NCBI RefSeq assembly: GCF_007559435.1
Contig: NZ_VMBP01000001.1
Coordinates: 807,406 to 871,405 of the forward strand
Reading direction: 5' to 3'
Length of the DNA stretch: 64,000 nt
Source: Ancylobacter moscoviensis
GTDB taxonomy: Bacteria > Pseudomonadota > Alphaproteobacteria > Rhizobiales > Xanthobacteraceae
Shown here piece by piece: positions 6,951 through 37,505 of this stretch (positions are counted from its first letter, which is position 1; each line of letters begins with the position of its first letter). A program made the translations under genes and the position numbers. A model generated the notes under the pieces. The model worked only from the letters and a program-made list of their open reading frames with translations, did not search any database and was not told the DNA's origin.

Positions 6951-9686
6951 ATGACCGTCGATGCCGTTTCGCAAAACGTTCCGCCCGCCACCGTCACCGA
7001 CCCCGCCGATCCCGCCGCCCGTTCCGACTGGCACGCCCTGCCTCACGAGGAGGTGGCGGGCCGGCTCGGTGTCACCGCCACCGGCCTGAGCGCCGGCGAG
7101 GCGCAGCTCCGCCTGGAGCGGCACGGGCCCAATGCGTTGCCCGAGACGCCCGGCCGGCATCCGCTCCTGCGCTTCCTCGCGCAGTTCAACAGCGCGCTGA
7201 TTTATTTCCTGCTGGCCGGCGCGACCGCCGCCCTCATCCTCGGCCATGGCGTCGATGCGGGCGTGATCATCGCCGTCGTGCTCATCAACGCCCTTGTCGG
7301 CTTCGTGCAGGAAGGCAAGGCCGAACAGGCGCTGCGCGCCATACGCAACATGATCTCGCCGCACGCCAATGTGCTGCGCGACAGCCGGCGCATCAGCGTG
7401 GAGGCACGCGATCTGGTGCCGGGGGACATCGTGCTGCTGGAGGCCGGCGACCGCGTGCCTGCGGATACGCGGCTCATCCGCGCGCGCGGCATGCTGATCG
7501 ACGAGGCCATTCTCACTGGCGAGTCGGTGGCGGCGGCCAAGCGCGAGGAGCCCGCCCCGGCGGAGGCGGCGCTCGGCGACCGTCATTCCATGGCGTTCTC
7601 GGGCACCACGGTGGCGGCCGGGCAGGGGGCGGGGATCGTCGTTTCCACCGGACCGCACACCCAGATCGGCCGCATCGGCCGGCTCATCGCCGAAGTGGAG
7701 CCGCTGGCCACCCCGTTGCTGCGCCAGGTCGATGCCTTCGCCCGCCGCTTCACCTGGACGGCGATCATCGGCGCGCTCGTGCTGTTCCTGTTCGCCGTGG
7801 CGGCGCGCGACTATGGCTGGACCGACGCCTTGATGGCCGTGGTGGCGCTGGCCGTCGGCGTGGTGCCGGAAGGACTGCCGGCGGTCATCACCATCACGCT
7901 GGCCATCGGCGTGCGGCGCATGGCGCGGCGCAACGCCGTCATCCGCCGGCTGCCGGCGGTGGAAACGCTCGGCGCGACCTCGGTCATCTGCTCGGACAAG
8001 ACCGGCACGCTGACCCGCAACGAGATGACGGCCCGCCGGCTGATCGTCGCCATGCCCACCGGCCCGGCCGCGATCGAGGTGTCGGGCACCGGATACTCGC
8101 CCGAGGGCGAGCTGAGCTGGCCGCAGCCCGGCACGCCGTCCGAAACGGCGCAGGACCTGCTGCGCTGCGGGCTGCTGTGCAACGACGCGCATCTCCACAA
8201 CGAAGCCGGCGTGTGGCGGGTCGAGGGCGACCCGATGGAAGGGGCGCTGGTGTCGCTCGCGGTCAAGGCGGGGCTGAGCCCGGCGCTGGAGCGCGGCGCC
8301 TGGGCGCGGCGGGACGAGATCCCCTTCGACGCGGCCTATCGCTTCATGGCGAGCCTGCATCAGGGGCCGCAGGGAGAAGCGGTCATCTTCGTGAAGGGCG
8401 CGCCGGAAGAGGTGCTCGCCCTTTGCCCGGCCCCCGGCGAGGGCTGGAACGACGCCATCGCGCAGGCGGCGGCCGAGGGCGAGCGGGTGCTCGGCTTCGC
8501 CATGAAGCGGCTCGCGGAGGCGCCGGCGCGGCTCGGCTTCGACGATGTGCGGGAAGGTTTCGTCTTTCTCGGCCTCGTCGGCTTCATCGATCCGCCGCGC
8601 CCCGAGGCGGTGGCGGCCATCGCCGAGTGCCGCACCGCCGGCATCGGCGTGAAGATGATCACCGGCGACCACGGCGCCACCGCCGGCGCCATTGCCCGCC
8701 AGCTCGGCCTCGCCGAGGAGCCGGTCGTCGTCACCGGCGCCGAGGTCGACGCGGCCTCCGACGAGGACCTCGTCGGCATCGCCGCCCGCACCTCGGTGTT
8801 CGCCCGCACCAGCCCGGAGAACAAGCTGCGCATCGTGCGGGCGCTGCAGTCCACCGGCGCGGTGGTGGCGATGACCGGCGACGGGGTGAACGACGCGCCC
8901 TCGCTCAAGCAGGCCGATGTCGGCATCGCCATGGGCCGCAAGGGCACGGAGGCGGCCAAGCAGGCCGCCGAGGTGGTGCTGCTCGACGACAATTTCGCCT
9001 CCATCGTCGCGGCGGTGAAGGAGGGGCGCACCGTCTACGACAACATCCGCAAGATGATCGCCTGGACGCTGCCGACCAATGGCGGCGAGGTGCTGGCCGT
9101 CATCGCCGCCATCATCGTCGGCAGCATCATGCCGATGTCGCCGGCCCAGATCCTCTGGATCAACCTCATCCTCACCGTCACCCTCGGCCTCGCGCTGGCC
9201 TTCGAGCCGACCGAGCCGGGCATCATGGACCGCCCGCCGCGCGCGGCCGGGGCGGCGCTGCTGTCCCGCTTCATGCTGTGGCGGGTGATCTTCGTCTCCG
9301 TGCTGTTCATGCTGGCGGCCTTCGCCATGTTCGCGCTGTCCATGGGGCGCGGGCAGGGGGTGGAGATGGCGCGCACCATCGTGGTCAACACCATCGTGGT
9401 GATGGAGATCTTCTACCTGTTCAACGTGCGCTTCCTGCACATGAGTTCCATCACCTGGCGGGGCGCGCTGGGCACCCCGGCGGTGCTGCTGGCGCTGGCG
9501 GCGGTGGTCGCGGGGCAGTTCGCCTTCACCTACCTGCCGGTGATGCAGGAGATCTTCGACACCCGCCCCGTCGCCTTCCTCGACGGCGTGATGATCGTCG
9601 GCGTCGGCGTGCTGCTGATGATCGTGCTGGAGGTGGAGAAGGCGCTGCTCCGGCGCCTCGGCGTGTTTTCCGCCGAGGAGATGTGA
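6951..9686 (+). CDS. P-type cation-transporting ATPase (P2 type)
   Basis: Membrane pump of about 911 residues that uses an aspartyl-phosphate intermediate. Domains in order are an N-terminal cation-ATPase segment, membrane helices 1-2, the actuator domain (ILTGESVAAAKRE), helix 4 with VVPEGLPAVITITLAIGVRRM, the phosphorylation site CSDKTGTLTRNEMT, a nucleotide domain with FVKGAPEEVL, the hinge TGDGVNDAPSLKQADVGIAMG, and a C-terminal helical block. The PEGLP helix 4 marks the P2 group (Ca, Na/K type) and excludes copper and zinc P1B pumps. The ion cannot be told from sequence alone. The ATG at 6951 is preferred over an upstream TTG at 6912. It follows actR and may be redox-related. Confidence 0.88.
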   Translation: MTVDAVSQNVPPATVTDPADPAARSDWHALPHEEVAGRLGVTATGLSAGEAQLRLERHGPNALPETPGRHPLLRFLAQFNSALIYFLLAGATAALILGHGVDAGVIIAVVLINALVGFVQEGKAEQALRAIRNMISPHANVLRDSRRISVEARDLVPGDIVLLEAGDRVPADTRLIRARGMLIDEAILTGESVAAAKREEPAPAEAALGDRHSMAFSGTTVAAGQGAGIVVSTGPHTQIGRIGRLIAEVEPLATPLLRQVDAFARRFTWTAIIGALVLFLFAVAARDYGWTDALMAVVALAVGVVPEGLPAVITITLAIGVRRMARRNAVIRRLPAVETLGATSVICSDKTGTLTRNEMTARRLIVAMPTGPAAIEVSGTGYSPEGELSWPQPGTPSETAQDLLRCGLLCNDAHLHNEAGVWRVEGDPMEGALVSLAVKAGLSPALERGAWARRDEIPFDAAYRFMASLHQGPQGEAVIFVKGAPEEVLALCPAPGEGWNDAIAQAAAEGERVLGFAMKRLAEAPARLGFDDVREGFVFLGLVGFIDPPRPEAVAAIAECRTAGIGVKMITGDHGATAGAIARQLGLAEEPVVVTGAEVDAASDEDLVGIAARTSVFARTSPENKLRIVRALQSTGAVVAMTGDGVNDAPSLKQADVGIAMGRKGTEAAKQAAEVVLLDDNFASIVAAVKEGRTVYDNIRKMIAWTLPTNGGEVLAVIAAIIVGSIMPMSPAQILWINLILTVTLGLALAFEPTEPGIMDRPPRAAGAALLSRFMLWRVIFVSVLFMLAAFAMFALSMGRGQGVEMARTIVVNTIVVMEIFYLFNVRFLHMSSITWRGALGTPAVLLALAAVVAGQFAFTYLPVMQEIFDTRPVAFLDGVMIVGVGVLLMIVLEVEKALLRRLGVFSAEEM

Positions 9687-25426: not shown

Positions 25427-27148
25427 TCAGCGGATCAGCGGTTGGTAGTGATGCGGCAGGCGCATCGTCACCAGATCCTTGCGCCGCACCACGTTGGTCG
25501 GGTAGCGGCTGTCGAGGTTCGAGGTGTCGATGTCGCAGGCGATGACGCCTTCGCCCTCGCCGAGAATGGCCTCGCGGCGGGGGAACTCGAAGGTGTCCGG
25601 CCCGAAGACACCGCTCTTGCCGCTATAGCCGGCTGCCGGATCGAGCACGTTGGCGAAGGCGAGGTGCACGTTGTTCTCGCCGGCACGGGCGCGCATCAGA
25701 TGCCAGTGATGCGGATCGGCGCCGGTCGGAATCGGGTAGTTCTGCGCCACCGCGCTGCCCGCATGCGAATTTATTAGCCGGCTGCGCAGCGCGGCGGGGG
25801 CGAGGATCAGGTCGCAGCCGCGCAGCGCGAGCACGCGGCCAGATTCGGGAAAAGCGGCGTCATGGCCGATCAGCAGGCCGATCCGGCCGAATTTGGTGTC
25901 GAAAACACCCCATTCGTCGCCCGGTTGCGCCCAGTTGTGATCGGTCGCGTCGAGGTGGGTCTTGCGGTAGCGGCCGATGACGCCCTGCGGGCCGACCAGC
26001 ACCGCGCTGTTGTAGAGCGTGCCTGCGTCATCCTCGGCGAGGCCGGCGGCGATGTGGAGGTCGTGCCGGGCGGCGATGGCGACGAGCTTCGCCACGGCGG
26101 CGCCGTCGGGCGGCACCGCGCCCGGCGCGTCGAGGCCGGTGACGGCGCGCTCGGGGAATACGACGAGCTCCGCGCCCTCCTCGCGCGCGGCCTTCACCGC
26201 GAGCTCCTCGATGCGGGCGAGGTTCGCCTCCACGTCGCCGCCCGGCGCGAACTGCGCGACGGCGATGCGCGAACGGCGGCCCGGCGGCAGCGGGCGGTGG
26301 CCGTAGAGGGTGAAGAAGTCGAGCGGGTTCCACAGATAGGTGTTGGTCGGCAGCTCCATGTAGAGCTCCGGCCGGCGCTGCTCGAACACCTTCTCGCCGA
26401 GCACGCGGCGGGCGCGGGCGCGTTCGAGGTCGAGCTCGGCATAGGCGACGCCGTCGCCCGCGTCGATCACCGCCTCGATGGCGCCGTCCGGCCCGATGAC
26501 GCAGCTGCCGCCGGAGAACTGCACGGTGCGCTCCAGCCCCCAGCGGTTGGCCTCGATGAGGTAGCAGCTGTTCTCGACGGCACGGGTGATCCAGTAGGGG
26601 GCCGGGGTGCGCTCGGCCAGCCAGTTGGAGATGTGGCAGATGATGTCGGCGCCGGCCAGCCCGACAAGGCGGGCGGTCTCGACGAAGTGGATGTCCATGC
26701 ACACCAGCATGGCGATGCGGCCGATGGGCGTCTCGAACACCTGATGGCCGAGATCGCCCGGCGCCGACCATTTCGGCTCGGCGATGTAGGGGTGCGTCTT
26801 GCGGTGAGTGCCGACGACGCCCTCGGGGCCGACCAGCACGCCGACATTGTAATAGAGGTTGGTCGTGGGATCGACCTCGGGCATGCCGACGACGATGTAG
26901 CAATCATGCGCGCGCGCCACGTCGGCGAAGCGGTCGGTGGTGGGGCCGGGGATCGGCTCGACGAAGGGCGCGACCTCGGCGCGGTCGACCCAGCAATAGC
27001 CGGTGGTGCCCATTTCCGGCGTCACGATGAGCTTCGCGCCGGCCTCCGCGGCCTCGGTGACCATCTCGATCAGGCGCGTGATGTTGCGCTCCTTCTCGAA
27101 CATGGTGGGCTCGAACTGGACGGTGGCGACCTTGAGCGGCTTCGTCAT
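25427..27148 (-). CDS. Fused double nitrilase: active N-terminal and degenerate C-terminal domain
   Basis: 573-residue fusion of two carbon-nitrogen hydrolase domains. Domain 1 (about 1-285) has the full triad: E45 (VTPEMGTTG), K117 (HRKTHPY), C150 (MLVCMDIHF). Domain 2 (about 293-573) keeps E333 (VFPERAVTG) and K396 (RKTHLDATDH), but the cysteine position reads LLIGHDAAFPE with glycine G428, so it should be inactive as a hydrolase. It is the last enzyme gene of the amide operon and would hydrolyse an amide or nitrile to acid plus ammonia. The dead domain may scaffold oligomers or sense ligand. Confidence 0.85.
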   Translation of the reverse strand: MTKPLKVATVQFEPTMFEKERNITRLIEMVTEAAEAGAKLIVTPEMGTTGYCWVDRAEVAPFVEPIPGPTTDRFADVARAHDCYIVVGMPEVDPTTNLYYNVGVLVGPEGVVGTHRKTHPYIAEPKWSAPGDLGHQVFETPIGRIAMLVCMDIHFVETARLVGLAGADIICHISNWLAERTPAPYWITRAVENSCYLIEANRWGLERTVQFSGGSCVIGPDGAIEAVIDAGDGVAYAELDLERARARRVLGEKVFEQRRPELYMELPTNTYLWNPLDFFTLYGHRPLPPGRRSRIAVAQFAPGGDVEANLARIEELAVKAAREEGAELVVFPERAVTGLDAPGAVPPDGAAVAKLVAIAARHDLHIAAGLAEDDAGTLYNSAVLVGPQGVIGRYRKTHLDATDHNWAQPGDEWGVFDTKFGRIGLLIGHDAAFPESGRVLALRGCDLILAPAALRSRLINSHAGSAVAQNYPIPTGADPHHWHLMRARAGENNVHLAFANVLDPAAGYSGKSGVFGPDTFEFPRREAILGEGEGVIACDIDTSNLDSRYPTNVVRRKDLVTMRLPHHYQPLIR

Positions 27149-27254
27149 CGGCTCTCTCCGGACGGAAGGGGGCGTTCGGCGCCCGCACGGTCAGGCGGTC
27201 GCGCCGGGAATGGGTGTCGGGCGGTCTTCGGGGCGAGGCCCGCCGGGCGTCCCC

Positions 27255-27269
27255 CTCCCCGGCGGGGAG
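27255..27269. other. GC hairpin between fmdA and the nitrilase gene
   Basis: CTCCCC-GGC-GGGGAG forms a short perfect hairpin in the 142-bp gap between the formamidase stop and the nitrilase start. It looks like the small dispersed GC palindromes common in such genomes. It could modulate the nitrilase level. No T-run is present. Confidence 0.35.
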
Positions 27270-27290
27270 AGGGAGCTGGGGCCCCGGAGG

Positions 27291-28280
27291 TCAGCCCAGA
27301 TAGGACTTCAGGATCGAGGCGCCCATCGTGTATTTGGGATCCACCATGTTGCCGAGGCGCACGCGCCCGCACTGGGTCAGCAGCATGTAGGCCTCCACCT
27401 CGTCGAAGCCGTAATCGGCCGCCATCCAGCGGATGAGGTCGCGATAGGCCATGCGGGTGGCGTCCTCCATCGGGCGGGTCGAGCCGATGGACATGATGAA
27501 GTCCTTGGTCTCGAGGCGGGGCGTGTGGACGCTCCAGCCCTTGATGAGGTCGATCTGGATCGTCGTGACGGTGGGATGCTCCAGCGCCACGCCGCACAGC
27601 TCGCCATCGCCCTGGGTGGCGTGGCAGTCGCCGAGATAGAGCAGGCCGCCCTTGGTGTTCACCGGCAGGTAGATGACGGCGCCGACGCCGACGTCCGGCA
27701 GGTCCATGTTGCCGCCGTAATAGTCGGGCTGCAGCGAGGTGATCGCCTCGATCTCCGGCGAGGTGCCGATGGTGCCGATGAACGGCACATAGGGAAGGGT
27801 CAGCTTGTCGCTCCACTTCGTGCCGGTCTCGGCGTCGACGTGCAGCTTCTTCACCTTGATCGGCAGCGGCGCGTTGAGCATCGCCGTGTCCTTGGTCGGC
27901 ACGAGACCGCCGAACTCCGGCATGATCAGCGTGGTGCCGCGCGGCTGCGGGCCGCGGGGGACGATGGACTTGATGTAGACGGCGAGCGTGTCGCCCTTCT
28001 CGGCGCCGTTGACGAAGATCGGGCCGTTCTGCGGGTTGAGATAGGGGAAGTTCAGGATCTCGAGCGGGTTGTCCGTCTCGTGCTTGATCTTGCCCTCGAA
28101 GGCGTCGTGCGTCTCGGCGGCCACCACCGCGCCGGGATCCACCTTCAGCACGGGATCGACATAGGGGCCGTAGACGTAGTGGTACGTGCCCTGCTCCGCC
28201 TCGGTGATGGTGTGGGAGGCGCCCGCCTGGCCCTTGGCGAGGCCTTTGCGAGCCATGATGGAGTTCTCGAGCCAGGACAT
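27291..28280 (-). CDS. fmdA: Formamidase/acetamidase (FmdA/AmdA family)
   Basis: 329-residue cytoplasmic amidase of the FmdA/AmdA family, which releases ammonia from formamide and other short amides. Recognisable blocks are VDPGAVVAAETHDAFEG, NPQNGPIFVNGAEKGDTLAV, PRGTTLIMPEFGG, LYLGDCHATQGDGELCGVALE and MSIGSTRPMEDATRMAY. The length is somewhat short of the roughly 400-residue Methylophilus enzyme but all core blocks are present. It follows the five-gene importer of the same operon. Together they predict uptake and hydrolysis of formamide, acetamide or similar compounds. Confidence 0.88.
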   Translation of the reverse strand: MSWLENSIMARKGLAKGQAGASHTITEAEQGTYHYVYGPYVDPVLKVDPGAVVAAETHDAFEGKIKHETDNPLEILNFPYLNPQNGPIFVNGAEKGDTLAVYIKSIVPRGPQPRGTTLIMPEFGGLVPTKDTAMLNAPLPIKVKKLHVDAETGTKWSDKLTLPYVPFIGTIGTSPEIEAITSLQPDYYGGNMDLPDVGVGAVIYLPVNTKGGLLYLGDCHATQGDGELCGVALEHPTVTTIQIDLIKGWSVHTPRLETKDFIMSIGSTRPMEDATRMAYRDLIRWMAADYGFDEVEAYMLLTQCGRVRLGNMVDPKYTMGASILKSYLG

Positions 28281-28324
28281 GATGTTCTCCTTGAAGCTGG
28301 CTATCCCGAAACAGGCTGTCTCGA

Positions 28325-29038
28325 TCAGACGGCGAGGTGGCGCCGCATCGCTTCGCCGTCGGCGAGCTGTTCGCGTTCGAGCTCGGCGACGATGCGGCCC
28401 TTGTCCATGACGTAGCAGCGCTGGGCCATCGCCCGGATCATGTCGATGTTCTGCTCGACGAGGACGATGGTGACGCCGGTGTCCTTGTTGAGCTGCACCA
28501 TGATGCGGGCGATGTCCTGCACGATGTTGGGCTGGATGCCCTCGGAGGGTTCGTCGAGCAGGATCAGCGACGGATTGGCGACCAGTACGCGGCCGATGGC
28601 GAGCTGCTGCTGCTGGCCGCCCGACATGGTGCCGGCGCGCTGCGACCAGCGTTCCTCCAGAATCGGGAAATAGCCCAGTACCCGCCGGCGGTCCGCCTCG
28701 GTGACGCCGCCCGCCCGCATGCCGCCGACGGCGATGTTCTCGCCGACGGTGAGGCGCGGGAAGACGTCGCGGCCCTGCGGCACGTAACCGATGCCGAGCC
28801 GGGCCCGGCGATGGGGGGAGATGTGCTCGACCGGCTTGTCGCGGTAGACGATGGAGCCGTCCATGGCCGGGACGAGGCCGATGAGGCTTTTCATCAACGT
28901 GGACTTGCCGACACCGTTGCGCCCGATCACCGCGACGATCTCGCCCTCGCGGACCTCGAGGTCGAGGCCCTGCAGGACAGGCTTGCCGCCGTAGCCGGCC
29001 CGCAGGCCGAGGGTGGAGAGCATGATTTCCTTACGCAT
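28325..29038 (-). CDS. Branched-chain/urea-type ABC ATP-binding protein (UrtE/LivF-like)
   Basis: 237-residue ATPase. Walker A GRNGVGKST, Q-loop YVPQGRDVFPRLTV, signature MSGGQQQQLAIGR, Walker B LILLDEPSEGIQPNI and switch VLVEQNIDM are all present. The GIQPNIV segment is the UrtE/LivF hallmark. The start at 29038 overlaps the urtD-like stop by 8 bases; an earlier start would add 11 residues. It is the last transporter gene, followed by formamidase, as in fmd operons. Confidence 0.9.
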   Translation of the reverse strand: MRKEIMLSTLGLRAGYGGKPVLQGLDLEVREGEIVAVIGRNGVGKSTLMKSLIGLVPAMDGSIVYRDKPVEHISPHRRARLGIGYVPQGRDVFPRLTVGENIAVGGMRAGGVTEADRRRVLGYFPILEERWSQRAGTMSGGQQQQLAIGRVLVANPSLILLDEPSEGIQPNIVQDIARIMVQLNKDTGVTIVLVEQNIDMIRAMAQRCYVMDKGRIVAELEREQLADGEAMRRHLAV

Positions 29039-29786
29039 GGAGGCCCCCCGGCTGCTGATGGGCGGTGGCATGGGCCGTCGTCTGCCCGAGATAGATCGCG
29101 GCGACTTCCTCGTCGGCGACGATGTCGTCGATCGAGCCCTGGGCGAACACCTTGCCCAGATGCAGCACCGTCACCTTGTCGGCGACCTGCCGCACGAAGG
29201 CCATGTCGTGCTCGACGGCGAGCACCGTCATGCCGTCGGCGTTCAGGCGCTTGATCATCTCGCCGGTGGCATGGGTCTCTTCCGGCGACATGCCGGCGGT
29301 CGGCTCGTCGAGCAGCAGGAGGCGCGGCTTGAGGCTGATCGCCATGCCGATCTCCAGCCACTGCTTCTGGCCGTGGCTGAGATTGCCGGCGAGGCGCCGC
29401 GCATCGCCGGAGAGGTTCAGGAAGGCGAGCAGCCGGTCGATCTCCTCCGCCAGCGTGGCCGGCTCGTAATGGTGCTGCATCGCGATTTCGAGGTTCTGCC
29501 GCACGCTCAGCGCCTTGAAGATGCCCGGCACCTGGAACTTCACGCTCATGCCCCGGCGGATGCGCTGGAAGGACTTGAACGCGGTGATGTCCTCGCCGCC
29601 GAACAGGATCGAGCCGCTGCTCGGCAGGTGCTCGCCGAGGATCAGGCGGAACAGGGTCGACTTGCCGGCGCCGTTCGGGCCGATGAGGCAGTGCACCTCG
29701 CCGGTTTCCAGCACCAGATCGACATTGTTGGTGACGTGCAGGCCGCCGAAGCGCTTGTTGAGGGCACGGGTTTCGAGGAGCGGCAT
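29031..29786 (-). CDS. Branched-chain/urea-type ABC ATP-binding protein (UrtD/LivG-like)
   Basis: 251-residue ATPase. Walker A is GPNGAGKST; the UrtD/LivG-type signature LSHGQKQWLEIGMAI and Walker B LLLLDEPTAGMSPEET follow, with EHDMAFVRQVAD. The LSHGQKQWLEIGMA signature is characteristic of UrtD and FmdF-like proteins rather than amino-acid LivG. The ATG overlaps the permease stop (ATGA), showing tight translational coupling through the transporter genes. Confidence 0.9.
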   Translation of the reverse strand: MPLLETRALNKRFGGLHVTNNVDLVLETGEVHCLIGPNGAGKSTLFRLILGEHLPSSGSILFGGEDITAFKSFQRIRRGMSVKFQVPGIFKALSVRQNLEIAMQHHYEPATLAEEIDRLLAFLNLSGDARRLAGNLSHGQKQWLEIGMAISLKPRLLLLDEPTAGMSPEETHATGEMIKRLNADGMTVLAVEHDMAFVRQVADKVTVLHLGKVFAQGSIDDIVADEEVAAIYLGQTTAHATAHQQPGGLHA

Positions 29787-30850
29787 CAGGCGTCTCCCGG
29801 CTGGCGCTTGGCGAAGGGGCGGGCGACGAGCCTGGCGAGCGCGAAGATCAGGCCGCTCGGCGCGAGCAGCACGGTGACCACCAGCATGGCGCCCATCACC
29901 ACCAGCGCGTACTGGCTGCCGTGGATGGTCAGTGCCTGGAACACGGCGAGCACGGTGACGGTGCCGATCAGCGTCGTCGTGAGGTCCGAGCGGCCGCCGA
30001 CCGCCACCCACACGATGGGCAGCGCCGCGGCGGTCATGCCCATGCTGGAGGGCGTGATGTACTGGCCCCAGCTCGTGTAGAGCACGCCCGACAGGCCGGC
30101 CAGCGCCGCGCCGATGACGAAGGTGCCGAGCTGGTACTTGCGGATGTCGTAGCCGAGCATCTCGGCACGCTCGGGATTCTCGCGGATGGCGACGAGAATG
30201 TTGCCGAAGGACGAGTTCACCAGGATGCGCAGGCCGAGATAGACTACGACCAGCAGCCCGAGCACGACATAGTAGAGCTGGACGTCCGGGAACAGCACGA
30301 TGTCGCCGCCGGGCCAGGGAAGGGTGAGCGGCGGCATGTTGCTCATGCCGTTGAAGCCGTTGAGGCGGGCGGCGCCGATGCGCCATTCCGGGCCGGCGGT
30401 CTGGGCCATGAAGCGCTCCAGCACCAGCGTCACCGACAGGGTGACGATGCCGAGGAACACGCCGGAGATGCGGCCGAAGAACAGGAAGTAGCCGAGCAGC
30501 GCCGCGAACAGCGCCGCGATCGCCACCGCGAAGACCAGCGCCACCAGGGTGAAGCCGTAAGCGGCGCCGAAATTGATGGTGAGGATGCCGTAGCTGTAGC
30601 CGGCGATGCCGAAGAAGGCCGTCTGCCCGAAGCTGAGCGAGCCGCCATAGCCCCAGATGAGGCACAGGCCGAGCGCCATGAAGATCCAGGTGAAGAAGTA
30701 GACGGTGTTGCCGACCGTGTAGCCGTCCGAGAACAGCGGATAGGCGCAGGCGCCGGCCAGCACGACGAGGAAGCCGACCCAGAAGGCCGGGCCTCGGCCC
30801 AGCGTCTGCGGGCCTTCCAGGCGGCGGAAGAAGCGGGAGAGCGCGTTCAT
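29786..30850 (-). CDS. Branched-chain/urea-type ABC permease (UrtC/LivM-like)
   Basis: 354-residue inner-membrane permease with about ten hydrophobic helices. SYGGSLSFGQTAFFGIAGYSYG and the cytoplasmic loop IRENPERAEMLGYDIRKYQL are the LivM/UrtC family blocks. It is second permease of the importer and 21 bp downstream of the UrtB-like gene. Confidence 0.9.
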   Translation of the reverse strand: MNALSRFFRRLEGPQTLGRGPAFWVGFLVVLAGACAYPLFSDGYTVGNTVYFFTWIFMALGLCLIWGYGGSLSFGQTAFFGIAGYSYGILTINFGAAYGFTLVALVFAVAIAALFAALLGYFLFFGRISGVFLGIVTLSVTLVLERFMAQTAGPEWRIGAARLNGFNGMSNMPPLTLPWPGGDIVLFPDVQLYYVVLGLLVVVYLGLRILVNSSFGNILVAIRENPERAEMLGYDIRKYQLGTFVIGAALAGLSGVLYTSWGQYITPSSMGMTAAALPIVWVAVGGRSDLTTTLIGTVTVLAVFQALTIHGSQYALVVMGAMLVVTVLLAPSGLIFALARLVARPFAKRQPGDA

Positions 30851-30871
30851 TGGTGTCCTTCTCGTGTCCTG

Positions 30872-31744
30872 TCAGGCGCGCTCGCGCAGGAGGAAGCCGG
30901 AGATGCCGCGCGGCAGGACGCGGATGACGATGATGACGGCGATGAGCAGGCCGATCTGTCCGGCGAGCTGGCCGTACCAGGAGGTCATGGTCGCCTTGAC
31001 CACGGCGAGCAACGCCGCCGCCGGGGCGGTTCCCAGGAACACGTCGGCGCCGCCGACGACCACCGTCACGAAGGCTTCCATGATGAAGGTGGTACCCATG
31101 GTCGGCACCAGCGTCATGGTCGGGGCGTAGAGGCCGCCGGCGAGGCCCGCCAGACCCGCGCCGAGGGCGAAGGTCAGGCTGTAGACAAGGCGGGTGTCGA
31201 CGCCGAGCGCGGCCGCCATGTGCGGCACCTGGATGGTGGCGCGGGCCATGACGCCGAAGCGTGTCCAGTTGAACAGGGCGTAGAGCGCCGCCAGCACGAG
31301 CACGGCCATGCCAAACAGGACGAGGCGGTAGACGGAATAGGAATAGTCGCCGACCTGGAAGCTGCCGAAGGGCGTGCCGACGCCCGCCATGGTCGAGCCG
31401 AGCAGGATCAGCGTGCCCTGCGTGCCGATGAGGCTGAGGCCCCAGGTGGCGACGATGGTGTCGAGGGGCCGGTCGTACAGATGCCGGATGACGAGGATCT
31501 CCACCAGCGCGCCCACCGCCGCCGAGACCAGCGCGCCGATGACGACGGCGACCGGCAGCGGAATGCCGGCATGGACGGCGGAGACGGTGACATAGGCACC
31601 GCACATGATGAATTCGCCGTGGGCGAGGTTGATCACGCCCATCATCCCGAAGATGACGGCGAGCCCGCAGGCGGACAGCACCAGGAAGGCGAAGGCGTCG
31701 CCGAACTGGTAGAGGGCGGAGAAGGCGAGAGTTCCGACATCCAT
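30872..31744 (-). CDS. Branched-chain/urea-type ABC permease (UrtB/LivH-like)
   Basis: 290-residue permease with about eight membrane helices. GLAVIFGMMGVINLAHGEFIMCGAY is the LivH/UrtB block, and ATIQVPHMAAALGVDTRLVYSLTF the cytoplasmic coupling loop. It follows the binding-protein gene after a 186-bp gap that carries three perfect hairpins. The UrtB reading is supported by its ATPase partners. Confidence 0.9.
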   Translation of the reverse strand: MDVGTLAFSALYQFGDAFAFLVLSACGLAVIFGMMGVINLAHGEFIMCGAYVTVSAVHAGIPLPVAVVIGALVSAAVGALVEILVIRHLYDRPLDTIVATWGLSLIGTQGTLILLGSTMAGVGTPFGSFQVGDYSYSVYRLVLFGMAVLVLAALYALFNWTRFGVMARATIQVPHMAAALGVDTRLVYSLTFALGAGLAGLAGGLYAPTMTLVPTMGTTFIMEAFVTVVVGGADVFLGTAPAAALLAVVKATMTSWYGQLAGQIGLLIAVIIVIRVLPRGISGFLLRERA

Positions 31745-31774
31745 CGGCGAGCGGCCCTATGCTAGAAGGAAAAG

Positions 31775-31809
31775 GTTGCCCCGGCACTGAGGGGGTCGGC
31801 CGGGGCAAC
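31775..31809 (-). terminator. Third stacked hairpin, terminator-like, before the permease genes
   Basis: GTTGCCCCGGC and GCCGGGGCAAC form a perfect 11-bp stem with a 13-nt loop. On the minus strand it is followed by CTTTTCCTTC, so it resembles a leaky intrinsic terminator. It lies 30 bp before the UrtB-like start. It probably lowers permease expression relative to the binding protein. Confidence 0.6.
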
Positions 31810-31854
31810 GCACGGGACGGCCGCGTCGGCGGCAGCCCGTGAAGCGGTCGAAGC

Positions 31855-31874
31855 GCGATCGGCGGACCGATCGC
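31855..31874 (-). repeat. Second stacked hairpin in the binding-protein/permease gap
   Basis: GCGATCGG-CGGA-CCGATCGC is a perfect 8-bp inverted repeat with a 4-nt loop. It is the middle one of three consecutive hairpins between the binding-protein and permease genes. No T-run follows. Confidence 0.55.
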
Positions 31875-31885
31875 CGCGCCGGAGA

Positions 31886-31912
31886 CCGCCGGTCAGGCTT
31901 TCCGACCGGCGG
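31886..31912 (-). repeat. First stacked hairpin in the binding-protein/permease gap
   Basis: CCGCCGGTC and GACCGGCGG form a perfect 9-bp stem with a 9-nt loop, starting 18 bases after the binding-protein stop codon. It would protect the 3' end of the binding-protein message from exonucleases, as REP-type hairpins do in other operons. Confidence 0.55.
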
Positions 31913-31930
31913 GTTGTTCCGGCTGCCGGC

Positions 31931-33181
31931 TCAGGGCTTCGGCGGCGGGTTCGAGGGCGTGTACTGCGCGCTCGGGTCGCTCTTGGTCAGGTCGCAGCCG
32001 GCCTCGCCCAGCCAGTAGGGCTTGATGTCCTGCCACACCTTCGGGAAGGAGATGGAGTGATCCTCGCTCACCTTCGCGAGATAGATGGTGTGGGACATGT
32101 GCTGGCTCTTCGGGTCGATGCAGACCTTGCCCTCGGGGGCGTCCATGCACACGTCGCCCTTGGCGATCTCCTTGCGCAGCGCCTCGCGGTCGGTCGTCCC
32201 GGCCCGCTCCACCATCTGCTTGTAGAGGTAGACGGCGAGGTAGGAGTTCTCCATCTCCTGGTTGATATAGGGCTCGTTCGGGTACTTGGCCTTGAACTTG
32301 GCGACGAACGCCTTCGATTCCGGCGAGTCGATCTCTTCGATGTAGTTGGTGGTGACGTACATGTCCTTCAGGGATGGCGGCTTGAAGCGCTTGTGCTCGT
32401 AGCCCTGGCCGACATTCACCGAGGAGGCCATCGGCAGGCCGACATTGGCGGCGGCGGCCTGCTCGTAATAGGAGGCCTGCGCCGTGCCGACGAGCAGCGT
32501 CACCACGAAGTCGGGCTTGGCCTTCTGGATGTTCTGGATGTTCTGCGAGAACTGCGACACGCCGAGCGGGATGAAATCCTCGCCGACCATCTCGCCGCCG
32601 TTCTCCTTGACGATGTTGCGCACCCACTCGGCCGAGATCTGGCCGAAATTGTAGTCGGCGGCGAGCGTGTAGACCTTCTTGCCGTACTTCTCCATCATCC
32701 ACGGGATGAGGGTGGAGAACTGCTGCTCGGGCACCGCGCCGGTGACGATCATGTTGGCGTCGCAGACGCCGCCTTCATACTGGTTGTTGTAGAAGGCCAG
32801 GCCGTTGAACTGGTTCACGATCGGCCGGTAGGCCTCGCGCGAGGCCGAGGAGAAGCCCGCGAACACGGCGTCCACCTTGTCGCGCTGGAGCACGCGGCGC
32901 ATGAACTCCTGATAGCGCGTGTTGTCGGACTGGGTGTCGTAGATCACGAGTTCCAGCGGGCGGCCGGCGATGCCGCCGGCCTTGTTGATCTCGTCGGCGG
33001 CGAGCTGGATGGCGTTCACCTTGCCGTTGGTCACGGCGGCGAAGTCGCCGGACTGGTCTTCGAGCACGCCGAGCTTGATCGGGTCGGCGGCGAGAGCAGG
33101 GGTGAAGCTGTGGGCGGCGCCGAGCAAAAGCGTCCCCGTGAGGGCCGCGGCACGCAGCCCCCGCATGGTCTTCCCAGTCAT
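31931..33181 (-). CDS. Urea/short-chain amide ABC substrate-binding protein (UrtA/FmdD-like)
   Basis: 416-residue periplasmic binding protein. Signal peptide: positive start, hydrophobic core LRAAALTGTLLLGAA, cleavage near PALAADP. The mature part has IKLGVLEDQSGDFAAVTNGKV, AFYNNQYEGGVCDANMIVTGAVPEQQ and WMMEKYGKKVYTLAADYNFGQ, all typical of UrtA/FmdD rather than LivK amino-acid proteins. It starts 19 bp after the amiR-like stop with an AGGAGAA ribosome site. A urea, formamide or acetamide ligand is expected. Confidence 0.9.
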   Translation of the reverse strand: MTGKTMRGLRAAALTGTLLLGAAHSFTPALAADPIKLGVLEDQSGDFAAVTNGKVNAIQLAADEINKAGGIAGRPLELVIYDTQSDNTRYQEFMRRVLQRDKVDAVFAGFSSASREAYRPIVNQFNGLAFYNNQYEGGVCDANMIVTGAVPEQQFSTLIPWMMEKYGKKVYTLAADYNFGQISAEWVRNIVKENGGEMVGEDFIPLGVSQFSQNIQNIQKAKPDFVVTLLVGTAQASYYEQAAAANVGLPMASSVNVGQGYEHKRFKPPSLKDMYVTTNYIEEIDSPESKAFVAKFKAKYPNEPYINQEMENSYLAVYLYKQMVERAGTTDREALRKEIAKGDVCMDAPEGKVCIDPKSQHMSHTIYLAKVSEDHSISFPKVWQDIKPYWLGEAGCDLTKSDPSAQYTPSNPPPKP

Positions 33182-33200
33182 TTTCTTCTCCTGTGAAAGG

Positions 33201-33857
33201 TTATCGTCTTTCCGAGCTGCGCTCCGCGAGGAGCGGTCGCATCGGTGGGTCGAGGGCTTCCGCCCTCGTCTTCATGAAAGCCTCGCAGTAGTCTTCGAGA
33301 GTCAGCCGCGAGCGCATGCTTTCGCGACGGAGCCACTCATAGGCTTCGTCGTCATCGACGCCCGTGTCCTTCATGCGGGCGATGATGGCCTTCACCACCG
33401 CGCGGCGGCCACGCCGGCGGCGATCCATGTCGTCGAGCCGCGACCGGAGGTCGCCGCGCAACAGGAACTGGTTGATGCCGAGGAACAGCGCGGTGTAGAC
33501 GGCGGCACCCTGCACGGGCTTGCGCAGGAACGCCGTCGCGCCGAGGTTGACGAGGTGCTTGAGCCGGCTCGGCGCCTCGACGCCGACGAGGCCGATCACC
33601 GGCACCGGCGGCTGGCGGGAGCCGGCATCGATGTCGAGGGCGACGGGATTGTCGAGATCGCCGTCGACGAACAGGATGTCGCGCTCCGCCTGCAGGGCGC
33701 CGAGATCGATGTCGGCGCGCCCGTCGACGAGCGCGGGAAAGGTCGCGCTCACGCCCAGCTTGCCGAGGGTGGTGTGCAGCGCTTCGACGGCCGTGAGATT
33801 GGACGTGACGATATAGGCCCGGCCGCCGTTGAAGTTCTGGAGCAGTCGAGGAGCCAT
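33201..33857 (-). CDS. amiR: ANTAR-domain antiterminator (AmiR-like)
   Basis: 218-residue regulator. The N-terminal half is a pseudo-receiver (YIVTSNLTAVEALHTTLGKLGVSA, LFVDGD, KPVQGAA), then a coiled linker (LRSRLDDMDRRRRGRR) and an ANTAR domain (VVKAIIARMKDTGVDDDEAYEWLRRESM, then RLTLEDYCEAFM). ANTAR domains bind paired hexaloop hairpins in leader RNA and prevent termination. The ATG at 33857 overlaps the amiC stop (TGATG), so the two are made together and probably form the silencing complex known from Pseudomonas AmiC-AmiR. The likely RNA target lies in the operon leader (35030-35141). Confidence 0.9.
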   Translation of the reverse strand: MAPRLLQNFNGGRAYIVTSNLTAVEALHTTLGKLGVSATFPALVDGRADIDLGALQAERDILFVDGDLDNPVALDIDAGSRQPPVPVIGLVGVEAPSRLKHLVNLGATAFLRKPVQGAAVYTALFLGINQFLLRGDLRSRLDDMDRRRRGRRAVVKAIIARMKDTGVDDDEAYEWLRRESMRSRLTLEDYCEAFMKTRAEALDPPMRPLLAERSSERR

Positions 33858-35005
33858 CACTTTACCACTCTCAGTGAAGAGTTGCGGGCAGCGACCGCAT
33901 AGCGCGGCGACGACTGGACGAGATAAGGGTCCGGACGGACCGGGCCGGGCGCCTCGACGATCAGCTCGAAGCGCGAGGCAGCGTTTGAAATCCCGATTCG
34001 CGGCGTCAGATGGGCGTGCAGCGTCTGCGGGTCGATGTGCACCTCGCCCTGCGGGGCGAGGAGATGCTGGCGCGTGGCGGCTTCCTTCACCGCCTCGACG
34101 TCGTCCGTGCCGGCCTCGGCGAGCGCGAGGACGAGCAGCTTCATCGCGATGTAGGAGGCTTCCGCGTCGGCGGAGGTGGAGGGGCCCTCGGGGAAGGCCG
34201 CGCGATAGGCACGGGTGAAAGCCTCGTTGGTCGGCGAGGCGAGGGAGGAGAAATAGACGCTGCAGCTCAGGTGCCCGTCGACCGCATCCGTGCCGATCTC
34301 TTCCAGCTCCGGTTCGGACAGCGTGCAGCTCGCCACCGGGATGACGCGCGGCTGGTCGATGCCGCGGGCATTGCAGGCGGCGCGGAAGGCGCGGAAGAAG
34401 GCGTAGTTGCTGGTGCCGATGAGGTTATTGAAGACGAAGCTCGGCCGGGCTTCGAGGATTGCCTCGACGACCTGGTCGATCTCGGTGTCGCCGACCGGCA
34501 CGTAGCGCTCGGCGAGGACCCGTGCCCCGCGCGCGGTCATCGCCTCACGGAAGATGCGGGTGTTCTCCCAGGCCCAGATGTAATTGGAGCCGATGCAGAA
34601 GGCGCTCGACCCGACATGGGCCAGCATGTGGTCGACGAGCGGCAGGACGTGCTGGTTCGGCGAGGCGCCGGTGTAGATGACGTTGTTGGAGCTCTCGAAG
34701 CCCTCATAATGCGAGGGGTACCAGAGCAGCGCGTCGTGCTTCTCGAAGCAGGGGATGACCTCCTTGCGGCTGGAGGAGGTGTAGCAGCCGACCACGTGCC
34801 GCACGCCCGACTGCAGCAGGTCGCGGCTGAGCGCGGCGTAGCTGGCGAGGTCGCCGCCCGGATTGACCACGACGGGTTCGACGGAGATGCCGGGCGCGAC
34901 CTGTTCGGCAACCGCCAGCAGCGCCCCGTTCAGCATGGAACGGGCGACGACGCTGTAGGGTCCGGTGGTCGAGAACATGACCCCTATGCGGTAGTGCTTC
35001 GACAC
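33857..35005 (-). CDS. amiC: Amide-binding negative regulator AmiC-like
   Basis: 382-residue cytoplasmic periplasmic-binding-protein fold without signal peptide, almost the length of Pseudomonas AmiC (385). Blocks include YRIGVMFSTTGPYSVVARSMLNGA, LWYPSHYEGFESSNNVIYTGASPNQH and IGSNYIWAWENTRIFREA, diagnostic of AmiC. It should bind AmiR when amide is absent and release it when amide binds. The start is GTG 35005, which gives the first beta strand (SKHYRIGVMF); an upstream ATG at 35077 would run through the leader terminator and is rejected. It is the first gene of the operon. Confidence 0.9.
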   Translation of the reverse strand: MSKHYRIGVMFSTTGPYSVVARSMLNGALLAVAEQVAPGISVEPVVVNPGGDLASYAALSRDLLQSGVRHVVGCYTSSSRKEVIPCFEKHDALLWYPSHYEGFESSNNVIYTGASPNQHVLPLVDHMLAHVGSSAFCIGSNYIWAWENTRIFREAMTARGARVLAERYVPVGDTEIDQVVEAILEARPSFVFNNLIGTSNYAFFRAFRAACNARGIDQPRVIPVASCTLSEPELEEIGTDAVDGHLSCSVYFSSLASPTNEAFTRAYRAAFPEGPSTSADAEASYIAMKLLVLALAEAGTDDVEAVKEAATRQHLLAPQGEVHIDPQTLHAHLTPRIGISNAASRFELIVEAPGPVRPDPYLVQSSPRYAVAARNSSLRVVK

Positions 35006-35017
35006 CCTGCGCTCCGA

Positions 35018-35058
35018 CCAAAACAAAAAACGCCCGCCGGCCTTTCGACCGTGGGCGT
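35018..35058 (-). terminator. Leader attenuator (intrinsic terminator) directly before amiC
   Basis: Minus strand: ACGCCC-ac-GGTC-gaaa-GGCC-ggc-GGGCGT followed by TTTTTGTTTT. The outer 6-bp stem, the inner GGTC/GGCC stem and the GNRA-type gaaa loop form a strong hairpin (35030-35058) with a T-run (35030-35021). No gene lies upstream on this strand to be terminated, so the hairpin must act inside the amiC leader. It ends about 15 bases before the amiC start codon. Confidence 0.85.
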
Positions 35059-35067
35059 CGTTGCCAC
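35051..35067 (-). promoter_or_regulatory. ANTAR-type hexaloop hairpin P2 (antiterminator)
   Basis: Minus strand: GTGGC-AACGAC-GCCCAC. A GGC/GCC stem, extended by GU/AC across one bulged C, closes the six-base loop AACGAC with A at position 1 and G at position 4, as required for ANTAR recognition. Its 3' arm (35051-35058) is also the 5' arm of the terminator stem, so P2 and the terminator exclude each other. Confidence 0.7.
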
Positions 35068-35127
35068 CAACCCGCAATGCCGATCGGCACCGTCGTTGGA
35101 AATGTTCACCGAAATTGCCGCGACATT

Positions 35128-35141
35128 GGGCATCCTTGCCC
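35128..35141 (-). promoter_or_regulatory. ANTAR-type hexaloop hairpin P1
   Basis: Minus strand: GGGC-AAGGAT-GCCC. Four GC pairs close a six-base loop with A at position 1 and G at position 4, the ANTAR consensus. It is about 60 bases upstream of P2, a longer linker than in most described ANTAR sites, so assignment as P1 is likely but not certain. Confidence 0.6.
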
Positions 35142-35576
35142 GCCGCTCGTTTCTTAGGCTCGCGTGAAGCCGCGCCTTTGTCAAGCGCTTTTCCTGTCCG
35201 TCACAGGCGGGTGAATAACTCGGCCCCGGCCGGCTGTCACCTGTCCGTCGCAAGGGTTCGGAGGGTGGTGACGGGGTGTGTCCCTGGTGAGGGTTTCACC
35301 CGGAGCGCCGGCAGCGGATCCTTCCGGTAAGATATGGACGCACGATGTGAACGAAACGGCGTCTTCGCACTTGATAGAGCACAGGCGGACCCGCCGGGAG
35401 GAAGTTGCCGGAGGCAACGATGCCATTCCCTAGCGTATCACATCGGGGTGTTGTCGCCCGCACGGGTTGTCGTGGCGTATTTCAGGCTTGCGGGCCGGAT
35501 GGGAACGGCTCGCGAGGCCAGGATTCAAAGTCGTCCCTTAGGAACCATCAAGACGTCGATAGCTGGAGTCTGCCGG

Positions 35577-35590
35577 TTGATCCGCATCAA
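35577..35590 (+). promoter_or_regulatory. FNR/FixK-type box upstream of the CBS-BON gene
   Basis: TTGAT-CCGC-ATCAA is a perfect FNR/FixK consensus palindrome. Its centre (35583.5) lies about 30 bp before an AACAAT hexamer (35613-35618) that could serve as -10 region, so the geometry fits a class II site around -41.5 with transcription starting near 35625. The CBS gene ATG is at 35645 after GGGAGG. Confidence 0.75.
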
Positions 35591-35644
35591 TCCTGTCGAT
35601 GTCGGATCATGAAACAATGAAGACAATAAAATCGGGAGGTTAAC

Positions 35645-36331
35645 ATGAAGGCACGTGACGTGATGACGTCGCCGGTGATCACGGCGAAATCCACCGACCT
35701 CGTGGTGCACGTGGCGCGGCAACTGCTCGACAACCGTATCAGCGCCGTACCGATCGTGGACGATGGCGGAGAGGTGGTGGGCATCGTCAGCGAGGGCGAC
35801 CTGCTGCGCCGCGCCGAGGCGGGGACCGAGCGGCGGCGCTCCTGGTGGCTGGAGGCGCTGCTCGACGACAGCACGCTCGCCGCGGAATATGTGAAGGCGC
35901 ATGGGCGCACCGCCACCGACGTGATGCGCCGGCCGGTGGTGACGGCCAAGCCCGACACGCCGCTCGACGAGATCGCCTCCCTGATGGAGGAGCACCGCAT
36001 CAAGCGCATCCCCATCGTCGAAGGCGGCAAGCTGGTCGGCATCGTCAGCCGCTCCAACCTCATTCAGGCGGTGGCGCGCCGGAGCATGGGACTGGAGATC
36101 CCGCTTTCCGACAGCGCCATCCGCGAGCAGGTGATGACCCGGCTGCGCGAGCAGCCCTGGGCCAATACGTGGCGTCTGAACGTCACCGTGGATGACGGCG
36201 TGGTGAACCTCTGGGGCATCGCCAATGCGGATGCCGAGAGGCGGGCGCTGCGCGTCGTCGCCGAGACGACGCCGGGCGTGCGGGCGGTGAACGATCACCT
36301 GATCCGGGAACCGATGGGCGGTTGGGCATGA
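35645..36331 (+). CDS. CBS-pair plus BON domain protein
   Basis: 228-residue cytoplasmic protein. Two CBS domains come first (about 1-56, MKARDVMTSPVITAKSTDLV; about 95-150, DVMRRPVVTAKPDTPLDEIA), then a C-terminal BON domain (about 158-222, IREQVMTRLREQPW to GVRAVNDHLI). CBS pairs bind adenosine nucleotides and report energy status. Similar CBS-BON proteins occur in rhizobial low-oxygen regulons. An FNR/FixK-type box precedes it. A universal stress protein gene follows 55 bp downstream, probably in the same unit. Confidence 0.88.
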   Translation: MKARDVMTSPVITAKSTDLVVHVARQLLDNRISAVPIVDDGGEVVGIVSEGDLLRRAEAGTERRRSWWLEALLDDSTLAAEYVKAHGRTATDVMRRPVVTAKPDTPLDEIASLMEEHRIKRIPIVEGGKLVGIVSRSNLIQAVARRSMGLEIPLSDSAIREQVMTRLREQPWANTWRLNVTVDDGVVNLWGIANADAERRALRVVAETTPGVRAVNDHLIREPMGGWA

Positions 36332-36386
36332 TGGCTCGGGCCGCGGGGGCGCTCGTCCCCGTGGCGCCCATGCAAGGAGACGCACC

Positions 36387-36824
36387 ATGTTCGCCCATAT
36401 CCTCATCCCCACCGACGGCTCGCCGCTGTCGAACACCGCCGTGCAATCGGCCATGGCTCTGGCGCGCGACGCCGGCGCCAAGGTGACGGTGTTCACGGCG
36501 GTGGAGCCGTTCCGCCTCCTCACCTGGTCCTCGTCGCAGATCGAAGCCACCCGGGCCGACTATGAACGGCAGGCGCATGCGACGGCGGGCGAGTTCCTCT
36601 CCGCCGCCGAGCAGATCGCCCGGCAGTTCGGCGTGCCCTGCGACGTGGTGCAGGTGGAGAGCGACGACCCCTGGCGCGCCATCGTCGAGACCGCCGATGC
36701 CCGCGACTGCGACCTGATCGCCATGGCCTCGCACGGCCGGCGCGGCGTCGCGGCGCTGGTGCTGGGCAGCGTGACGCAGAAGGTGCTGACGCATTCGACG
36801 GTGCCGGTCCTCGTCTATCGCTGA
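36387..36824 (+). CDS. Universal stress protein (UspA family)
   Basis: 145-residue single Usp domain. It starts MFAHILIPTDGSPLSNTAV and ends with the ATP-binding motif G-x2-G-x9-GS (ASHGRRGVAALVLGSVTQKVL) followed by STVPVLVYR, so it is of the ATP-binding type. An AAGGAG ribosome site precedes the ATG. Its place after a CBS-BON gene and before a phosphoribosyltransferase is typical of oxygen-limitation stress clusters. Confidence 0.92.
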   Translation: MFAHILIPTDGSPLSNTAVQSAMALARDAGAKVTVFTAVEPFRLLTWSSSQIEATRADYERQAHATAGEFLSAAEQIARQFGVPCDVVQVESDDPWRAIVETADARDCDLIAMASHGRRGVAALVLGSVTQKVLTHSTVPVLVYR

Positions 36825-36845
36825 CGCCCGGCGCGGGAGGCCGCG

Positions 36846-37505
36846 ATGGTGTTCGCCGACCGAAGCGATGCCGGGCGCCGGCTGGCGGCCGCGCTCCTGC
36901 CCTACCGGACGAAGCGCCCGGTGGTGCTCGCCCTGCCGCGTGGCGGCGTGCCGGTGGCGGCGGAGGTGGCGCGGGCGCTGGCGGCCCCGCTCGACCTCGT
37001 TCTCGTGCGCAAGATCGGCCTGCCCTGGCAGCCGGAGCTCGCCATCGGTGCGGTGGTCGACGGCGCCGAGCCGGTGATCGTGCGCAACGAGGAGATCATC
37101 GCGCATGAGGGCGTGGGCGAGGCGGAGTTCCAGCGCGTCTGCCGTCGGGAACTGGCGGAGATCGAGCGCCGCCGGGCTCGTTATCTCGGGGCCCGCGAGC
37201 GGGCGGAAATCGCCGGGCGGGTGGTGATCATCGTCGATGACGGCATCGCCACCGGCGCCACGGTGAAGGCGGCGCTGCGGGCGATCCGCCGGCGCGGGCC
37301 GGCGCAGCTGGTGTTGGCCGTTCCGGTCGCCCCGCCCGAGGCGGTGGCCGAGCTGCGGCCGGAGGTCGACGATCTCGTCTGCCTGGAGATGCCGGAGCGT
37401 TTCGGCGCGCTCGGGCATTTCTATCGGGATTTCGGCCAGCTCGGCGACGAGGAGGTGATCGCGACGCTGGCGCGCTTTCCCGTCCGTCCGCCGTCGCCCG
37501 CCTGA
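36846..37505 (+). CDS. Phosphoribosyltransferase family protein
   Basis: 219-residue type I phosphoribosyltransferase. VFADRSDAGRRLAAALLPY at the N-terminus, GGVPVAAEVARAL, and the PRPP-binding loop VVIIVDDGIATGATVKAAL are clear. Such proteins often accompany usp, alpha/beta hydrolase and PHA genes and their substrate is unknown; a role in base or nucleotide salvage during stress is possible. It is 21 bp after the usp gene. Confidence 0.85.
   Translation: MVFADRSDAGRRLAAALLPYRTKRPVVLALPRGGVPVAAEVARALAAPLDLVLVRKIGLPWQPELAIGAVVDGAEPVIVRNEEIIAHEGVGEAEFQRVCRRELAEIERRRARYLGARERAEIAGRVVIIVDDGIATGATVKAALRAIRRRGPAQLVLAVPVAPPEAVAELRPEVDDLVCLEMPERFGALGHFYRDFGQLGDEEVIATLARFPVRPPSPA

Follow-up and report, generated by a model that had tools for sequence, protein, structure and literature searches.

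A putative AmiR-controlled ANTAR antitermination leader with a long linker upstream of an amide operon in Ancylobacter moscoviensis

The amiC-like gene that opens a putative amide operon on the minus strand of the analyzed window (the whole 64-kb stretch of Ancylobacter moscoviensis DNA) is preceded by a leader that, judging from its sequence and those of its relatives, is very likely an ANTAR-type antitermination leader, i.e. an AmiR-controlled attenuator of a known kind. This reading, which the initial annotation had put forward, is supported by the parts of the leader and the mutual exclusion of its P2 hairpin and its terminator, by the AmiR-like protein encoded in the operon, and by the conservation of the leader, the covariation of P1, hairpin M and terminator, and the co-occurrence with AmiR, all of which were computed here. 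The leader is ordinary in kind and unusual in geometry, its long-linker form being in conflict with the spacing rule of EutV. We consider it about 75% probable that it acts as the attenuator of a short-chain amide operon, that the AmiR subfamily to which it responds has a long reach and would bridge the loops of both P1 and P2, and that M, located between them, would be a folded insert.

Along the minus strand, the leader begins with a promoter-like element, TTGACA-17 nt-GAGCCT (35156..35184), with a predicted start at about 35149. Next comes P1, GGGC-AAGGAT-GCCC (35141-35128), whose upper stem (35141-35138/35131-35128) closes the hexaloop AAGGAT (35137-35132) and stands on a lower helix (35146-35142 with 35124-35120), P1 and lower helix together spanning 35120..35146. 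An unpaired stretch of 20 nt (35100..35119) leads to hairpin M (35067..35099), made of an outer helix, CCAAC (35099-35095) with GTTGG (35071-35067), and an inner stem-loop of variable sequence. It is followed by the antiterminator hairpin P2, GGC-AACGAC-GCC (35054..35065), and by an intrinsic terminator (35020..35057) that consists of a stem (35057-35031) and the T-tract TTTTTTGTTTT (35030-35020) and indeed lies directly before the amiC-like gene. P1 and P2 were found exactly where the initial annotation had placed them, each with at least 3 bp and with a six-base loop carrying A at position 1 and G at position 4. Because the 3' arm of P2 (35056-35054) lies within the 5' arm of the terminator, P2 and the terminator exclude each other, as had been proposed. 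No co-directional upstream gene was seen, and the neighboring gene, which encodes a CBS/BON-domain protein (35645-36331), is divergent; thus, no upstream gene seen needs the terminator, which bears out another of the original observations. The P1-P2 linker, first estimated at about 60 nt, measures 62 nt; it had been underplayed, and it is the most interesting feature of the leader and at odds with the spacing rule in the literature. Three parts had not been noticed before, namely the lower helix of P1, hairpin M and the positionally fixed TTGACA-17 nt-GAGCCT element.

The amiC-like gene (33857..35005, minus strand) encodes an amide sensor that matches PF13433 with 419 bits and whose best solved relatives are the Pseudomonas aeruginosa AmiC structures 1qnl and 1pea/1qo0 (E 3.5e-68). 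Its start is probably the GTG at 35005-35003, and the protein scans used the annotated start at 35002, without the GTG codon. Its frame overlaps by 4 bases that of the adjacent amiR-like gene (33201..33860, minus strand), which was correctly read as coding for an AmiR-like protein, with a C-terminal ANTAR domain (PF03861, 42.4 bits; cut-off 27.3). The AmiR_N pseudo-receiver, by which the P. aeruginosa type would be recognized, scored 24.2 bits in this protein, below the cut-off of 27. When the single sequence was searched against solved chains AmiR came third, behind Rv1626 and EutV; with a ten-sequence alignment (A1) as profile, the best match was AmiR 1qo0_D (E 5e-8). The predicted model (mean pLDDT 83.5) also matched AmiR chains best, followed by EutV, and the comparison with 1qo0_E gave an E of 6.7e-10, TM scores of 0.65/0.72 and 18% identity. 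Residues K143 and K147 of EutV, named as RNA contacts in the available text of PMC8934654, appear to align with R153 and K157 of the window AmiR in a single-sequence alignment with an inferred numbering offset.

Downstream of amiC and amiR, the rest of the putative operon (27291..33181, minus strand) codes, in this order, for an UrtABCDE-like transporter (UrtA-, UrtB-, UrtC-, UrtD- and UrtE-like proteins) and an FmdA-like amidase; the UrtD-like frame (about 29031-29786) was assigned from the reading of open frames without a domain scan. Adjoining the amidase gene, a 573-amino acid protein with two tandem carbon-nitrogen hydrolase (PF00795) stretches is encoded at 25427-27148 (minus strand) and may also be part of the operon.

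Taken by itself, the window sequence provides modest evidence for a switch. A strict scan for P1, P2 and a terminator with the A1/G4 rule returned the leader as its one match in the 64-kb window, and the same scan of 12 dinucleotide shuffles of the window returned one match (0.083 per 64 kb), so that the motif alone is only moderately above chance. The leader was folded with and without P2 enforced, a check proposed in the initial annotation. The plain fold did not stand out (z -1.27; equalled by 22 of 200 shuffles) and its minimum-energy structure contained neither M nor P2, the 5' half of M being paired elsewhere; enforcing P2 restored M at a cost of 5.3 kcal/mol. A consensus scan of 27000-37000 did not list this terminator and reported no sigma-70 promoter. 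The search with existing covariance models came out negative, as Rfam gave no match at the gathering score in the 64-kb window and, with a lax E-value, no relevant one. The motif count in the shuffles and the unremarkable fold are what could be said for chance hairpins beside an ordinary terminator, an explanation that is hardly credible (conservation, covariation, co-occurrence and the matches of a covariance model, all given below, refute it). We accept the leader as real because this comparative evidence decides.

At an E of 1e-10, 44 of 200 relatives carried AmiR-like genes, and with the A1 alignment 80 named contigs were retained of the 112 that encode a relative, from Ancylobacter, Bradyrhizobium, Tardiphaga, Rhodopseudomonas, Kaistia, Labrys, Bosea, Xanthobacter, Chelatococcus and other genera. 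The sequences upstream of amiC yielded 115 leaders including that of the window, of which 90 were distinct. A core set of 75 was chosen from these by eye for a long linker with CCAAC/GTTGG-like arms and aligned (A2), one leader (L064) being trimmed and the start coordinates of two (L086 and L111) being adjusted beforehand; the other 15 distinct leaders and three plasmid leaders (18 outside the core set) were treated apart. The percentage of pairing in M is partly built in by this selection, which does not apply to its two-sided changes nor to the test of its inner stem.

The covariation score of the 75 core leaders exceeded that of 500 out of 500 shuffles, and six slid versions of the structure all scored lower (0.142 against a slid maximum of 0.054 in one analysis; 0.136 against 0.085 in that of the terminator). 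Unaided, RNAalifold recovered P1 with pairs of the lower helix, M and the terminator from the core alignment. Two-sided changes occurred at three of the five pairs of the P1 lower helix (90.9% of cells paired), two of the four pairs of the P1 upper stem (99.7% paired), two of the five pairs of the M outer helix and three of the nine terminator pairs. Hence P1 and the terminator are conserved and covary among relatives, and the lack of conservation and covariation that had been named beforehand as the outcome against the switch was not observed. The expectation that the P1 and P2 stems would both covary held for P1 only; the three base pairs of P2 are invariant in all 75 leaders (0/3 changed), and covariation is mute on them. 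RNAalifold also paired position 5 of the P2 loop with the base that opens the T-tract (G-C in 39, A-U in 30 and G-U in 6 of 75), a predicted pairing that ties the P2 loop to the terminator.

The promoter-like element was equally constant. TTGAC aligned in 74 of the 75 leaders, the exception being the trimmed L064; of the 74, 71 have a spacer of 17 nt and three one of 16 nt, the second hexamer always has A as its second and T as its sixth base, and TTGAC lies 47 nt from the P1 loop in 66. GAGCCT is a poor match to TATAAT. Transcription starting downstream of P2, which would have spoken against the switch, finds no favor here, as this conserved element and the predicted start lie upstream of P1.

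A covariance model of such leaders (R1), with 27 of the 80 named loci in its training set, matched 79 of the 80 AmiR-selected named loci and the window, and its other matches at E <=0.05 in 1.36 Mb were five second leaders only. In the A. moscoviensis genome R1 gave one strong match, the window leader itself (112.5 bits). The next one, at 27.1 bits, covered model positions 86-121 only, had no T-tract and was rejected as a further regulon member; 10 weaker matches up to E 10 were left aside. Among 297 genomes of the order, 18 had an R1 match of at least 38 bits and 18 an AmiR at E <=1e-45, 17 being common to both lists, which together comprise 19 genomes; the corresponding Fisher value, 1.7e-25, is descriptive only, because the thresholds were set after seeing the lists, the genomes are related and some leaders belong to the R1 training set. 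Two further R1 matches in this sample, G743 (32.6 bits) and G375 (29.9 bits), look like coding sequence and were discarded. Of the two exceptions, one is a leader at 6996-7116 (minus strand) of L201, with 89.3 bits; the amiC behind it appears to be truncated, and no AmiR of the leader-linked subfamily was present in that genome at an E of 1e-20. In the other, an internal stop interrupts the AmiR frame, and the leader there reached 32 bits in a local search. From their sequences, both look like decaying copies.

The hexaloop rule is followed loosely within the core set. The P1 loop has A1 in 71 of 75 leaders and both A1 and G4 in 40, and the P2 loop has G4 in 69 and both bases in 30; only 28 leaders, that of the window among them, obey the rule at both loops, and two (L111 and L112) have a P1 loop of 7 bases. 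In a Bradyrhizobium-like group the P2 loop is mostly GAGGGC (G1) and the P1 loop often lacks G4, departures that may reflect either an altered recognition (AmiR specificity) or a weaker role of P1. This degeneracy of position 4 of the P1 loop, set against the G4 of P2 in 69 of 75, is the main support for a second explanation, in which AmiR acts on P2 alone without bridging it to P1; the linker would then be unremarkable, and P1 with its lower helix would serve otherwise, e.g. in the stability of the 5' end or as a first landing site. It is also favored by the binding of NasR to P2 as a lone hairpin, at about 12 uM compared with about 1 uM for P1P2, in the accessible part of PMC7496416, and by the similar affinity of EutV for each isolated hexaloop in that of PMC8934654. 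Yet the P1 stem and lower helix covary and are kept in 75 of 75 leaders, the distance of P1 from the promoter element is fixed, and 17 of the 18 leaders outside the core set (all but L163) have an A1/G4 hexaloop in P1, and we thus regard action on P2 alone as unlikely, at roughly the odds of one against four.

Under the preferred reading, in which both loops are bridged, the linker is the feature to be explained. The length noted in the window turned out to be a property of the whole core set, with 56-66 nt in 75 of 75 leaders (median 61) and the constant order P1 lower helix, 17-21 nt, M, one nucleotide and P2. The 17-21-nt stretch is present in all 75, and 42 of its 56 distinct segments lack any fold. 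The covariation events in the M outer helix are few, one pair being G-C in three rows and the other in a single row. For the inner stem, 66 distinct segments had a mean of -9.2 kcal/mol versus -4.9 for mononucleotide shuffles, and every one of them gave a z below -1 (median -1.96); its sequence and length vary freely among relatives and its pairing is kept. That pairing rather than sequence is retained in these 66 segments, and that M lies downstream of the promoter element, makes it very improbable that its symmetry reflects the binding of a transcription factor to the DNA, as the conserved CCAAC/GTTGG inverted repeat might suggest.

Two candidate interpretations of the linker were rejected. 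One was a P1 located within the linker and thus nearer to P2; a further A1/G4 hexaloop hairpin (at least 3 bp) is present there in no more than 8 of 75 leaders and at inconsistent places, and a CC-AACGAC-GG look-alike before M has a 2-bp closure in only 18 of 75. The other was M as a kink-turn; its internal loop, inspected by eye, lacks conserved G-A pairs. Outside the core set, an evident M is lacking in L161, L123 and L038, where the lower helix and P2 are 18-22 nt apart, three leaders (L126-L128) have 26 nt, and a different hairpin occupies the position of M in L130, L120, L121, L117 and L037, being itself an A1/G4 hexaloop (ACAGAC) in L120 and L121. The unpaired span thus seems to be conserved among these sequences while M comes and goes. 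Those ACAGAC loops, together with the nearly invariant unpaired CATTT before M (columns 88-92, each in at least 70 of 75) and the pairing of the 5' half of M elsewhere in the free fold of the window leader, are the observations that would fit M as an active element, which might offer AmiR a third contact, cause a pause or compete with P2. We give this only a small chance of being right, as the inner sequence and length of M vary freely and leaders lacking M exist in L161, L123 and L038 and, as described next, in the same genomes.

With R1, a second leader divergent from amiC was found in eight loci (L130, L199, L208, L117, L120, L121, L037 and L118). The genes downstream encode nitrile hydratase beta and alpha subunits over the cut-off in L199, L117, L120 and L208 and the alpha subunit in L130, and in L037 a frame with the same N-terminus that is cut by the end of the examined stretch; nitrile hydratase was thus identified in six of the eight loci, and in L118 the contig ends. 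In seven of the eight, the second leader has a linker of 33-34 nt, with 23-25 nt from the lower helix to P2 that fold with 0 to -2.8 kcal/mol, and the paired amiC leader has a linker of 43-54 nt, or 32-43 nt from the lower helix, whose hairpin folds with -5.8 to -16.2 kcal/mol; in L118 both leaders contain hairpins. From their position and shared architecture, we infer that one AmiR would serve both divergent leaders.

The A. moscoviensis genome contains two further AmiC-AmiR pairs, with linkers of 5-6 nt. At one of them (L165 9250-9331; C5, near 1267 kb), an ANTAR-like leader with a 5-nt linker lies between amiR and urease genes, and its loops, GAGGCT and GATGTA, begin with G instead of A. 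At the other (L164 7913-8026; C11, near 230 kb), the leader is that of amiE (aliphatic amidase, 730.8 bits), which follows amiC-amiR; its linker is about 6 nt (10 in a scan counting a 3-base stem), and there is a single mismatch in its P1. Their AmiR proteins score 125-131 bits for AmiR_N versus 24-25 for the window AmiR. Scans at ten other loci (L166-L175) found no classic amiE leader of the P. aeruginosa type. In a separate group of AmiC-AmiR loci (L040, L041, L044, L046, L047 and L048), the leaders end in a terminator after two close hairpins, and their loops mostly break the A1/G4 rule (e.g. GGGC-AACAGC-GCCC).

The P. aeruginosa AmiC-AmiR system resembles that of the window in its AmiC-like sensor adjoining an AmiR-like ANTAR protein, its amide operon and its hexaloop hairpin overlapping a terminator, but its leader precedes amiE rather than amiC, and the window AmiR differs in an AmiR_N score below the cut-off. 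The Enterococcus faecalis EutV leaders, as described in the available text of PMC3369931 and PMC8934654, share with the window leader two A1/G4 hexaloop hairpins and a P2 that competes with the terminator, whereas their natural linker is 5-12 nt, compared with 62 nt, a hairpin M and a helix under P1 in the window; a 14-nt linker (PMC3369931) or the addition of 20 nt (PMC8934654) abolished or strongly reduced function. The 62 nt also exceed the 2-25 nt retained in the actinobacterial curation according to the available part of PMC8164766, whose RNAs are alike in their dual hexaloop motif, and leaders like that of the window would be left out by this limit. Since the 2012 definition of ANTAR leaders, as worded in the accessible text of PMC3369931, asks only for a variable linker, the long linker lowers the likeness to EutV and not the membership in the ANTAR class. 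The nasF leader of Klebsiella oxytoca (PMC7496416, from the part available) is similar in its tandem hexaloops in two consecutive hairpins and its transcription attenuation, but NasR senses nitrate itself. The NasS-NasT leaders of Alphaproteobacteria, in the available portions of PMC5424462 and PMC6759348, also depend on a pair of sensor and ANTAR protein, with another ligand and sensor; hairpins HI and HII are placed there 137 and 91 bp upstream of Paracoccus denitrificans nasA, a spacing that may also be wide, with HII possibly being the terminator. Among the papers listed in searches of the open literature, no title or abstract opening described this long-linker form, and none combined 'ANTAR' and 'nitrile hydratase'; the supplementary tables of Ramesh et al., to go by the accessible text, hold many variable-linker hits, and single leaders of this type may be among them.

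In the mechanism that we propose, the leader would be a transcription attenuator of an operon for the uptake and hydrolysis of short-chain amides (formamide/acetamide/urea-like). RNA polymerase would start just upstream of P1, and by default the terminator would form and transcription would stop before amiC. By analogy with AmiC-AmiR of P. aeruginosa, amide-bound AmiC would free the AmiR-like protein, whose dimeric ANTAR domains would presumably bind the RNA and hold the loops of P1 and P2. A P2 hairpin held in this way would keep its 3' arm out of the terminator and allow readthrough into the operon, amiC and amiR included. The two loops would be bridged over about 20 unpaired nt, with M folded out of the path beside P2 as a neutral insert, and the AmiR subfamily of such leaders would have a longer reach than the EutV type. 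A point against this best explanation is that folding out M still leaves about 20 nt, compared with 5-12 in EutV leaders.

We lean slightly towards a more specific proposal, namely a long-reach AmiR branch that would hold hexaloops across at least about 20 unpaired nt, with M against P2, and in part of which one AmiR would act on two divergent leaders, with and without the insert, so that nitrile hydratase would be coupled to the uptake and hydrolysis of amides. EutV, with its strict spacing, is the sole case from which the bridging of two hairpins by ANTAR proteins has been argued, and such a branch, if true, would break the EutV rule of 5-12 nt. A conserved family with linkers of 56-66 nt, together with side-by-side leaders with and without the insert next to one amiR, makes the spacing rule directly testable. 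In addition, a covariance model of such leaders would detect switches missed under linker limits of 2-25 nt, and it connects nitrile hydratase genes with antitermination that senses amides.
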